Below the pieces are notes generated by a model. The model saw only the letters and a list, made by a program, of their open reading frames with translations. It did not search any database and was not told the origin of the DNA. The translations under genes were made by a program, and so were the position numbers. Below are positions 14,284 to 44,486 of a stretch of 48,850 nt of DNA, piece by piece (position 1 is the first letter of the stretch; each line of letters opens with the position of its first letter). The stretch comes from an uncultured Desulfovibrio sp. (GTDB lineage Bacteria > Desulfobacterota > Desulfovibrionia > Desulfovibrionales > Desulfovibrionaceae). The stretch spans positions 1 through 48,850 of the forward strand of contig CAMQVJ010000012.1 in assembly GCA_947038175.1 (NCBI GenBank), in the 5' to 3' direction.

Positions 14284-14350
14284 TTTCAGGAAGGGGAGGG
14301 TGTGGGAGGGGAAAACTCATTTTTTAAAAAAATGGGGTTTCCCCTCCCAC
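14284..14350 (+). repeat. G-rich hairpin repeat, intergenic copy 1
   Basis: TTTTTTCAGGAAGGGGAGGGTGTGGGAGGGGAAAACTCATTTTTTAAAAAAATGGGGTTTCCCCTCCCAC. Confidence 0.8.
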
Positions 14351-16671: not shown

Positions 16672-16741
16672 AGATTTTTTTTACAGGGGGAACCCCATTT
16701 TTTTGAAAAAAATGAGGTTCCCCCCGTACCCCCCTCCTGAA
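16672..16741 (-). repeat. G-rich hairpin repeat, copy 2 (reverse orientation)
   Basis: Reverse complement reads TTTTTTCAGGAGGGGGGTACGGGGGGAACCTCATTTTTTTCAAAAAAATGGGGTTCCCCCTG. Confidence 0.8.
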
Positions 16742-16800
16742 AAAACAAATGAGTCGGTATAGTTTTTTATTGTTTGATGAGTTATAAACGTGGATATAAG

Positions 16801-16854: not shown

Positions 16855-17098
16855 TATAAAGTTCTTTGGAAGGGGGTTTGGGGGAAAGCCTTTCTTACAA
16901 GAAAGGTTTCCCCCAAAAAAATCGTCATTCCAAAAAAGTATTATTCAAAAAAAAAGAGAGGCTTTGCCTCTCTTTTTTATTATTAAACCATGTGTGTATT
17001 TGTCTTAAACTACTGTCAATTGGAATATGTCATATAAAGTTCTTGGGAAGGGGGTTTGGGGGAAAGCCTTTCTTTCAAGAAAGGTTTCCCCCAAAAAA
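16855..17098 (+). repeat. Two direct copies of a G-rich hairpin element (16855-16920 and 17033-17098)
   Basis: TATAAAGTTCTT(T/G)GGAAGGGGGTTTGGGGGAAAGCCTTTCTT(A/T)CAAGAAAGGTTTCCCCCAAAAAA is almost identical at both positions. Confidence 0.92.
16946..16981. terminator. Terminator-like hairpin between the two G-rich repeats
   Basis: AAAAAAAAAGAGAGGC-TTT-GCCTCTCTTTTTTATT. Confidence 0.75.
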
Positions 17099-36418: not shown

Positions 36419-36484
36419 TTTTCAGGAAAGGGGGGTACGGGGGGAAGACCTCATTTTGTGCTACAAAATGGGGTTTTCCCCCCG
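36419..36484 (+). repeat. G-rich hairpin repeat, copy 3
   Basis: TTTTTCAGGAAAGGGGGGTACGGGGGGAAGACCTCATTTTGTGCTACAAAATGGGGTTTTCCCCCCG. Confidence 0.85.
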
Positions 36485-36518
36485 TTAATTCCAACTCCAA
36501 AAAAACAGATTATCGAAA

Positions 36519-41346: not shown

Positions 41347-43023
41347 ATGGAAGATTCCAAACAAGAACGAGGAAAGCTTTGCTCTCAAGTGCAAGTAAAG
41401 ACACATAAAAAAGCAGACTCAAGCAAAAAAGAAAAGCATCTAGAAAGTGCTCGCCATCTTGCTGTTTTTGTTATTGGGGCGTCTCTTGGCTCGTCTGTCC
41501 CATTGCCTGTTATGCTCAATAATGCCTTTCAAGACCAAGAAGAAAAAAATCCTGCGGCGTATGCCAGTCGAAACAATGCATTTTGTACCCAGCTTGTTTA
41601 TGGTTATTTTCGACATGCAGGGCTTTTGCGTTTTGCTCTTGCTGATTTTGTAAAAAAACCTCAGAGTTTGCCACAAGAATGCCTCATAGCTCTTTATCTT
41701 GGGGCTTATGAAATATTGTTTTTAAACGATGTGGAAAATTTTAGAGACAATAGCCACGCCATTCTTTTTGAATATGTGGAAATGATAAAAACAGGATTTG
41801 GGCAGAAACTTTCAGGACTTATTAATGGTGTTCTGAGAAATGTGCAACGTGGTAAAGAAGAAATTCTTATGCGTCTTGAAGAAGTGAAAAAAACATATAC
41901 TGCGCCCATTCTTTCGCATCAAATTCCGAGTAAAAAAAGTATACGCAAAATGCACGCACTCGCTGATTTTCCTGATTTTTTTAGCGATGAAATACATAAA
42001 GACTTTTTGCAAGGCCTTGTTAGGAATAGTTTTTTTGCTCCTGTTCCTAGCTATCGAGTGAACGCAAAGTTTAAAGATATGCTCTGCGAAAATCTCCAAG
42101 ATATTCAAATGACGCAAGCAGAAACTAAAAATTCAGAATATACTTTAATAGAAAATACTTGTCTTTATTGGGCAAAGCCAAAAGAGCAAAGTAAGGAATT
42201 AGTAAAAGAAATTAAGCAATGGGAAAATGATGGTTTACTCACAAGGCAAGGCGTCAGCTCTCAATTGGTGGCGAAGAAAATTGCTGAATTTATTCAGTCG
42301 CTCCCTAAGTTTAGAGGTCTTGAAAATCAAAATACTGATAATACATTAGCACAAAACGAATTTCTTGTGTGGGATGCATGCTGTGGGCGTGGCGGTAAAA
42401 GTAGCGCTGTTATGGAAACAGGAGTGCCTGTCCATCTTTGTAGTGACCCAAATGCGGAACGCCTTTCTTATGCAGAAGAAAACATGGGACGACTTCGCCT
42501 TTTTGATACTCATAATAGTCCTGATGTTCCTAGTTCCCCCGACTGCCTTGGCACCCCCCATACTCCCGACAGCGCTGCCTCTCCTGATAAACCTCTTTTT
42601 TGTGTGAAGTCTGCTGAGGAAATAGCCGAAAAGATAGGCTCAAAAGAATCCGAAGACTTCGCCCATAGATTCAGCAGTGAGAAATTTTCTTTTATAATAC
42701 TTGATAGTCCTTGCTCTACATCGGGAACGATAGCGAGAAACCCTGAAGTTAAGCATCGTATTAATCCTGAAAGCCTTGAAGTGATCACGAAATTGCAAGC
42801 AGAACTTTTGAATACGACATGGGAATGCCTCCAAGAGGGTGGATATCTTATGTATATAACGTGTTCTGTTTTTAGCAAGGAAAATGACGAACAAGTTTCC
42901 CGTTTTATGGAAGAGCATAACGCTACGCTTGTTGAACAAAATTATATTATTCCTTATGCAATTTCCGAGGAATTTAAAGGACATGATATTTTATTTTATG
43001 CACTTTTACAAAAAACGCCCTAA
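41347..43023 (+). CDS. RsmB-like (NusB/Nol1/Nop2/Sun) 16S rRNA m5C methyltransferase
   Basis: NusB-like N-terminus, WDACCGRGGKSSAVME SAM motif, IILDSPCSTSGTIARNPEVKHRINPES, EGGYLMYITCSVFSKENDEQV. Confidence 0.87.
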   Translation: MEDSKQERGKLCSQVQVKTHKKADSSKKEKHLESARHLAVFVIGASLGSSVPLPVMLNNAFQDQEEKNPAAYASRNNAFCTQLVYGYFRHAGLLRFALADFVKKPQSLPQECLIALYLGAYEILFLNDVENFRDNSHAILFEYVEMIKTGFGQKLSGLINGVLRNVQRGKEEILMRLEEVKKTYTAPILSHQIPSKKSIRKMHALADFPDFFSDEIHKDFLQGLVRNSFFAPVPSYRVNAKFKDMLCENLQDIQMTQAETKNSEYTLIENTCLYWAKPKEQSKELVKEIKQWENDGLLTRQGVSSQLVAKKIAEFIQSLPKFRGLENQNTDNTLAQNEFLVWDACCGRGGKSSAVMETGVPVHLCSDPNAERLSYAEENMGRLRLFDTHNSPDVPSSPDCLGTPHTPDSAASPDKPLFCVKSAEEIAEKIGSKESEDFAHRFSSEKFSFIILDSPCSTSGTIARNPEVKHRINPESLEVITKLQAELLNTTWECLQEGGYLMYITCSVFSKENDEQVSRFMEEHNATLVEQNYIIPYAISEEFKGHDILFYALLQKTP

Positions 43024-43148: not shown

Positions 43149-44486
43149 TTATAAAGATTCCCCAAAGTAGGTCTCAAGAACGCTTTTGAGTTCCTCGTGG
43201 GTGCGGCAAGCGATAATGGCAAGGCGCAATGCTTTTGCGTTTTCAAGATGTTTTACGTACCTAGGAACTATGGTGCGCATTTGGAGAAGGGCTCTGTGTG
43301 GGTTAAATTCTTTGGCGTAGGTGAGATGTCTTTCTATGAGTTTGCCTAAGTCGTTGCGCATGTTTTCTGTGGTTTTAGGCATGAGGTCATTTATGTGTGG
43401 GATTTCTGAAGGCTTTAGTTTATTTTCTTGTGCGTAATTCCATAAGAGTACGTGTTCTTTGAATATGACAGGGTTTGACATGGCGCCACGTGCGTACATA
43501 ACGCCGTCGACCCCTGTTTCTAGGAGTATACGAACGCCATCTTGTGCGGTGAATAAGTCCCCACTTGCGATAACGGGGATTTTTATGGTGCTTTTTAGTT
43601 TTGTAAGGGCTTCGTAATTTGGCACACCACTGAAACTTTGTTTTGCGTAGCGTGGGTGTAGGGTTATCCAGTCTGCTCCAAGGGCTTCTAATTCTTTTGC
43701 TAAATCAATATAAACATCATTTCCCATTTCATAGCCAAGGCGAATCTTAAAACCAATCTTTCCAGCTCTAATGCCTTCTTTATTTTCCTCATTCCGAGTG
43801 GAATCTGTCGCACATTGTTTTGTGTTTATATTTTTCGTCGCCTTTTCAGGAAAGGGGGAGTTTGAGGGGGAAAAACTCATTTTGCGCTGCAAAATGGGGT
43901 TTTCCCCCTCATAAAAATCTTCTCCATCTGAATTACACAAAATGGGGTTTTCCCCCTCATGAAAATCCTCTCTATTCCCAAAATTCCCAAAATCATCAAA
44001 ATCTTTGCAGTCGGGATTGTGTACTTGTTTTATGACATGCTCTGCTATTTTGAGTAGATTGGGAATATCTTTGAGTAGTGCAGCGCCAGCGCCTGTTTTG
44101 ACTACTTTGGCAACGGAGCAACCGACATTGACGTCGAAGTGCTGGAAGCCTTTTTTTTGTAGGAGTGCGACGCCTTTCGCCATGAAATCGTGTTCTGCGC
44201 CGAATATTTGTGCTACGACGGGGCTGTCTTCTGGGCAGGTGGCGAGTAGAACTTCTGTGTGTTTTCCACCGTAAACGAGACCTTTTGCGCTGATCATTTC
44301 GGTGCAGGTTACTTTTGCCCCTTCTTCTTTGCAGAGAAGCCTGAAGGGCAGGTCTGACCAACCAGCGAGAGGTGCAAGCCAAGGGGATTCTGGGGTGATA
44401 GTTAATGTGTTATCTGTTGTGTCTTTTGCTGTGTTAGCTGTTGTATTTTCTGTTGTATCATTGTGCATAGTTATTGTTTTTTGCAT
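43149..44486 (-). CDS. tRNA-dihydrouridine synthase with an in-frame repeat-derived insertion
   Basis: SPWLAPLAGWSDLPFRLLCKEEGAKVTCTEMISAKGL, FDVNVGCSVAKVVKTGAGAALLKD, KIGFKIRLGYE, HPRYAKQSFSGVPNYE; insertion at about 43767-44015. Confidence 0.93.
   Translation of the reverse strand: MQKTITMHNDTTENTTANTAKDTTDNTLTITPESPWLAPLAGWSDLPFRLLCKEEGAKVTCTEMISAKGLVYGGKHTEVLLATCPEDSPVVAQIFGAEHDFMAKGVALLQKKGFQHFDVNVGCSVAKVVKTGAGAALLKDIPNLLKIAEHVIKQVHNPDCKDFDDFGNFGNREDFHEGENPILCNSDGEDFYEGENPILQRKMSFSPSNSPFPEKATKNINTKQCATDSTRNEENKEGIRAGKIGFKIRLGYEMGNDVYIDLAKELEALGADWITLHPRYAKQSFSGVPNYEALTKLKSTIKIPVIASGDLFTAQDGVRILLETGVDGVMYARGAMSNPVIFKEHVLLWNYAQENKLKPSEIPHINDLMPKTTENMRNDLGKLIERHLTYAKEFNPHRALLQMRTIVPRYVKHLENAKALRLAIIACRTHEELKSVLETYFGESL
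43847..43965 (+). repeat. G-rich hairpin repeat, copy 4 (43847-43913) plus a partial copy (about 43940-43965), inside dus
   Basis: TTTTCAGGAAAGGGGGAGTTTGAGGGGGAAAAACTCATTTTGCGCTGCAAAATGGGGTTTTCCCCCTCAT, then AAAATGGGGTTTTCCCCCTCATGAAAATC. Confidence 0.88.

Follow-up and report, generated by a model that had tools for sequence, protein, structure and literature searches.

A dispersed repeat of proposed triple-helix type lying in frame inside a conserved tRNA-dihydrouridine synthase (Dus) gene of an uncultured Desulfovibrio

Near one end of the 48,850 nucleotide stretch of Desulfovibrio sp. DNA that we analysed (contig CAMQVJ010000012.1 of assembly GCA_947038175.1, positions 1 to 48,850; hereafter the window) lies an open reading frame for a Dus protein, which is interrupted in frame by a copy of a short repeat that elsewhere in the genome sits mostly just after genes (Table 1). 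The identity of the protein is confirmed by Pfam, where PF01207 matches in two pieces (E 1.6e-53), and by solved Dus structures, which align on both sides of residues ~158–241 and skip what lies between. In four species of the same genus (one is Desulfovibrio sp. UBA8003) the orthologue has 336–339 residues and runs VHKDKGRKIGFK or similar, where the window has VHN, 84 further residues, and then GKIGFK. The insert is 252 nt long. Of its six frames only that of dus is open, and shuffled inserts stay open in 0.2% of cases. No second Dus was found in the genome, so the gene is probably in use. Though this is a single draft assembly for which no reads were examined, and the insert is repeat-rich, an assembly error or a pseudogene still open by chance is very unlikely given the open frame, the conservation of both Dus halves, the fact that no other Dus was found in the genome and the position of the copy inside a contig.

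Table 1. Features of the window, in coordinates of the whole stretch
Position	Strand	Feature	Remarks
43149..44486	-	Dus (tRNA-dihydrouridine synthase) gene	445 aa; the only Dus found in the genome
43764..44015	-	84-codon in-frame insert (PDCKDF...GIRA)	absent from four same-genus orthologues
43843..43911	-	repeat element core (hairpin + third segment + CCTGAAAA tail)	sense with dus; covariance model E 1.4e-19
43900..43910	-	purine arm GAGGGGGAAAA	
43864..43874	-	pyrimidine arm TTTTCCCCCTC	Watson-Crick partner
43861..43863	-	3-nt connecting loop AAA	
43851..43860	-	third segment CTCCCCCTTT	parallel (Hoogsteen-type) match to the purine arm
43938..43970	-	first copy of the duplicated 5′ arm (EDFHEGENPIL)	
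43890..43922	-	second copy of the 5′ arm (EDFYEGENPIL)	belongs to the full element; 48 nt later
36419..36485	-	intergenic copy	36-37 nt after a same-strand stop codon
14283..14349	-	intergenic copy, GGGAGGGG arm type	third segment CCCTCCCCTT
16681..16743	+	intergenic copy	
16870..16914	-	same architecture, different stem interior	GGGGGAAACCTTTCTTG...
17048..17092	-	same architecture, different stem interior	about 52 nt after a same-strand stop codon

The original prediction, made from the sequence alone, was that Dus homologues run directly across this point, that about 80 residues intervene here, and that the intervening DNA is a G-rich hairpin repeat also found between genes at 14284, 16672 and 36419, with a partial second copy giving EDF(H/Y)EGENPIL twice and the frame remaining open. 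This observation holds, and the phenomenon is larger than was described. Two findings had been named in advance as fatal to it, namely related Dus proteins carrying the same segment or an absence of other genomic copies, and we found neither. The duplicated peptide reflects a 48-nt, in-frame duplication of the 5′ arm of the element. However, the core is only part of the insert, which also holds a T/G-rich leader of the kind seen before other copies and a tail of roughly 75 nt, and the description as a G-rich hairpin misses a third segment that mirrors the stem. We looked for a target-site duplication around the dus insert and found only a 7-nt AAAGATT match, which is not convincing.

A BLAST search of the whole genome with the insert gives 56 matches. 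A covariance model built from 22 copies gives 142, which collapse to 78 distinct places when the palindromic counterparts are removed, and the window holds five further members or relatives of the repeat. Contig ends fall in copies, as expected of a repeat. The 5′ arm is also tandemly duplicated upstream of copies on contigs C58, C2, C49, C78 and C19 of this genome, with spacings of about 34–48 nt, suggesting replication slippage at the structure. Other copies are themselves interrupted: those at C50:4630-4712 and C42:5344-5414 by another repeat (TTGCTCTCTATTTCCGTAATTGCTCCCATG...GCAAACG...), a nested insertion, and that at C131:2024-2085 by an insertion with its own hairpins lying in the loop.

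On the dus strand the element reads GAGGGGGAAAA - CCCCATTTTGCAGCGCAAAATGAG - TTTTTCCCCCTC - AAA - CTCCCCCTTT - CCTGAAAA, where the first and third blocks form the stem. The block CTCCCCCTTT, three bases after the stem, is the mirror of the pyrimidine arm, that is, the parallel complement of the purine arm, and it changes when the stem changes: GGGGGAAAA goes with CCCCCTTT, GGGGGGAAA with CCCCCCTT, GGGGGGGGAA with a C8-9 run and one T, GGGAGGGGAAA with CCCTCCCCTT, and GAGAGGGGAAA with CTCTCCCCTT. In 59 of 62 parsed copies the number of T in the third block equals the number of A in the arm minus one, over four run-length classes (A2 to A5). The same stem interior occurs with several arm types, so the arms changed on a shared background and the third block changed with them. 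This is the architecture of a pyrimidine-motif intrastrand triplex.

To test this covariation we identified hairpins without looking at their 3′ side, and then permuted the 3′ flanks among hairpins of the same sample. The observed mirror scores exceed the permuted ones in the sample from the genome itself (5.09 vs 4.35+-0.17; 0 of 2000 permutations) and in the samples from genomes G141 (6.76 vs 5.91+-0.17; 0 of 2000) and G207 (6.75 vs 5.61+-0.28; 2 of 2000). The alternative that the third block is a second Watson-Crick partner of the first arm was not significant in the first two samples (209 and 121 of 2000) and was weaker than the mirror in most other sets, though in G010 both were significant. 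In three other families of the phylum the mirror signal gave 0 of 2000 (G533), 9 of 2000 (G600) and 46 of 2000 (G490), while in a further sample, f21, it was absent. Nor does the third block pair with upstream DNA (4.34 vs 4.49 permuted); only copies with a duplicated 5′ arm, such as that in dus, can do so. The longest matches are asymmetric and leave no doubt of direction: GGGGAAGGGAGGGAAA with CCCCTTCCCTCCCTTT, 16 of 16, in G207, and GGGGGAGAGGGA with CCCCCTCTCCCT in G141. A mirror cannot arise by ordinary template copying, and the explanation known to us is a third strand lying parallel in the major groove (pyrimidine-motif Hoogsteen triplets). One could instead suppose that the third segment, which is C-rich and in most copies lacks a Watson-Crick partner, is a conserved site for Rho or an RNA-binding protein behind an ordinary hairpin, with a mirror match due to composition only. 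We consider this very unlikely, since a fixed protein site would not change in step with the stem inside one genome, and the asymmetric matches of 12–16 nt are not compositional.

The same architecture is widespread. The exact pattern GGGGGAAA-stem-TTTCCCCC-N(1-8)-CCCCCTT occurs in 65 of 297 genomes of the order, all in the family of the window, Desulfovibrionaceae (16 genera; taxon names are inferred), with up to 147 per genome and only a handful of hits for the reversed control pattern. Phylum-wide it also appears in other families, with 18 copies in G600 and 245 in the 2.5 Mb of G533, where there are two arm types (TGGGGGAAA and TGAGGGAA) whose third segments follow suit. Stem interiors differ entirely between genera; the architecture is what is shared. 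Loci of one genus (genomes G069, G082 and G101) share elements at orthologous gene ends, with a changed stem interior at the pair L186/L202. Elements at loci L172-L207 of these three genomes and L156-L159 of G207 share a GC-rich 5′ lead, GCCTCCGGCGGCC, directly before the purine arm and often a downstream GTCGCGCTTCGCGTCCGCG. Plasmid and phage records gave no match to an element from G101.

In the genome studied, 43 copies have a same-strand ORF stop within 90 nt upstream of the 5′ arm and none on the other side, while 2 show the reverse, 6 both, 26 neither, and 1 has no data. Over six sample sets, with a 60-nt limit, the corresponding count is 56 vs 6. Gene ends were taken from an ORF heuristic; the typical distance is 7–55 nt. 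The gap between stem and third block is 3 nt in 96 of 131 elements from ten sample sets. Downstream of the third block, 79 of these 131 have an A-tract followed by CTT (background 3.7%), most often 6–8 nt after it (mode 7 nt). The tail position follows the end of the third block (slope 0.99), though part of this is built in, because the tail was searched for after that block. In the own genome the tail is less T-rich, with 5 of 14 elements having the CTT motif. The elements have the position and orientation of intrinsic terminators, but not the canonical form, in which a G+C-rich hairpin is directly followed by a T run: here the C-rich third segment follows the full stem, the A-tract-CTT tail comes about 19 nt after the stem in the 79 elements that have one, and a simple terminator scan marks only the inner stem before TTTTT.

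The orientation bias bears on two other readings. The first is a purely selfish repeat (MITE, REP or RPE-like) whose hairpin serves transposition, whose place behind genes reflects where insertions are tolerated, and whose third segment has no role on the RNA. It is favoured by the close sequence relationship of the own-genome copies, which share stem interiors and even stem mismatches, by the contig breaks at copies, and by the two coding genes that are hit. However, tolerance alone does not give a 43:2 sense orientation, the three-part architecture is kept while stem interiors differ completely between genera, and a search for Y1_Tnp (PF01797; RAYT-type) transposases returned no match in the 96.7% complete genome (controls were positive in 5 of 14). 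We thus regard it as unlikely. The second is a DNA-level element, in which the template strand forms a purine-motif (class I) triplex at neutral pH that stalls polymerases or causes instability, as proposed for BoxC/PIT elements. The complementary strand does have the class I order (G-rich third strand, purine, pyrimidine), G-rich purine-motif triplexes are stable in vitro (PMC4666352), and the tandem 5′ arms suggest slippage. A DNA role does not need sense orientation, however, and the E. coli motif has no strand bias, in contrast to the 56:6 seen here; this reading is possible but also unlikely.

What the analysis itself establishes is that the Dus insert contains one member of a repeat family with the order purine arm, stem/loop, pyrimidine arm, 3 nt, third pyrimidine segment and A-rich tail, that the third segment is the parallel match of the purine arm and varies in step with it, and that the family sits mostly behind genes in sense orientation. 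From this we infer, with moderate confidence, that the element works at the RNA level at transcript 3′ ends, as a terminator or 3′ protector. The orientation bias makes RNA the likelier working molecule. The sense strand has the class III order (purine, pyrimidine, third), and the pyrimidine motif is the one reported to form in RNA (PMC4666352). In this view the RNA hairpin, clamped by the third segment in its major groove (U.A-U and C+.G-C triplets), brings the end of the folded structure up to a weak A/U-rich stretch (AAAAACUUUU type in most relatives), which would promote transcript release and/or block 3′ exonucleases. Neither triplex formation nor termination was measured, and no transcript data were examined. 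Runs of C+.G-C triplets are weak at neutral pH, as also stated for the class III form (PMC4666352), and E. coli PIT elements are reported to show no promoter or terminator activity (cited in PMC4666352). Copies would have spread through the genome by an unknown route, and in dus one copy with its leader and tail would have landed in a loop between a helix and a strand of the TIM barrel, in a frame without stops. Translating ribosomes would melt the structure, so that the gene still works with a long disordered surface loop.

A structural model of Dus is consistent with this. The insert (161–239) has pLDDT near 25, is unstructured, and lies between helix 141–156 and strand 243–249, before a barrel strand, which by TIM-barrel topology is the face away from the active site. 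The model rests on two sequences (mean pLDDT 57.8), and translation of the insert, which would give EDFYEGENPILQR-type peptides, was not tested. At 41347-43023 and 44410-44480 of the window, the neighbouring RsmB-like gene has a low-complexity stretch (SPDVPSSPDCLGTPHTPDSAASPDKP) and Dus an N-terminal stretch (TTENTTANTAKDTTDNT) absent from same-genus Dus proteins; the genome may favour in-frame expansions generally.

The closest known systems share some of these properties. BoxC, also known as PIT elements or the triplex motif TM_ECO, of E. coli and other bacteria (Hoyne and Maher; Holder et al. 2015, PMC4666352) is a dispersed repeat with three segments that can form an intrastrand triplex, with a 3-nt loop before the third strand. 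However, BoxC is class II, with the consensus CCCTCNCCC N3-6 GGGNGAGGG N3 GGGNGAGGG, always intergenic in MG1655 and without strand bias, whereas the element here differs in segment order and sequence, is class III on the sense strand (class I on the other), has a longer stem, varies freely in sequence with three-way covariation, is strongly sense-oriented behind genes, and also occurs inside genes. It has the purine, pyrimidine and third segments of the ITxF intrastrand triplex motif, matching in the Hoogsteen sense and separated by short loops, except that the loop between the two arms is a stem extension longer than the 1–6 nt of the ITxF definition. REP/BIME elements are likewise short imperfect palindromes at gene ends with many copies and tandem partial copies, but the element here has a three-part architecture, and the lack of a Y1_Tnp protein in the 96.7% complete genome speaks against a REP mobilised by a RAYT transposase. 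Mobile terminator-like repeats such as SPRITE of pneumococcus (PMC10969869) are dispersed hairpins in a different phylum. No third strand is described for SPRITE, a point that was not tested here. The MALAT1/ENE RNA triple helices suggest what the element might work like, a 3′-terminal RNA triple helix that protects the transcript, though those are eukaryotic, rich in U.A-U triplets and use an A-rich tail, whereas the triplets here are mostly C.G-C and lie within one stem. No Rfam 15 family matches in the window at the gathering threshold, and we found no published account of the repeat in the open-access literature, a search that did not cover subscription journals or supplements.

The element works like an intrastrand-triplex repeat and, in two genes, like a Rickettsia palindromic element. 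It is possible, though less likely than not, that several families of this phylum mark gene 3′ ends with a class of transcript terminator or stabiliser whose active structure is an RNA triple helix, conserved by three-way covariation and not by sequence, and mobile enough in the genome studied to insert in frame into housekeeping genes. Evidence that natural selection keeps a nucleic-acid triplex is scarce, and what exists is mostly in vitro folding. Here three segments change together in many copies and many genomes, and the orientation relative to genes says which molecule to test. If the element is a terminator or 3′ protector, transcript ends in a large group of sulfate reducers have been misread.

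The original prediction also compared the insert to Rickettsia palindromic elements (RPEs), stating that no such report was known for Desulfovibrionaceae, and this interpretation is partly supported. As in RPEs, a dispersed palindromic repeat lies in frame in conserved housekeeping genes whose orthologues lack it, in dus and, in antisense, in aroE. However, it is not mainly a coding element: only 3 of 78 places are coding, compared to nearly half for RPEs (as cited in PMC10969869), there is no single preferred frame or strand, 31 of 111 sense frames are open, and the element is shorter. No set of RPE sequences was compared. The comparison also missed the triplex-type architecture and its spread across the phylum. 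Among other in-frame candidates, small ORFs over copies have no Pfam support above the cut-off, and an open frame at tex (contig C2) begins upstream of the real Tex domains.

The dus and aroE inserts are natural experiments on how such repeats become protein. In aroE at least two antisense copies lie in the inter-domain linker, two of them 243 nt apart on contig C33 (locus L260). The open frame reaches a contig end, and the N-domain lies on contig C96 (locus L290) with a separate in-frame insert. The joint between C96 and C33 is not shown, the two open frames having been written end to end as a query for the search only. Same-genus AroE proteins lack both inserts: in genome G004 the gap between the two matched blocks is 10 nt, where the window's genome has about 100 codons or more. 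The aroE gene also carries another GC-rich palindromic repeat (SRGALPPSPPSKGAEPLCNPRSGRDF), again lacking in same-genus AroE.
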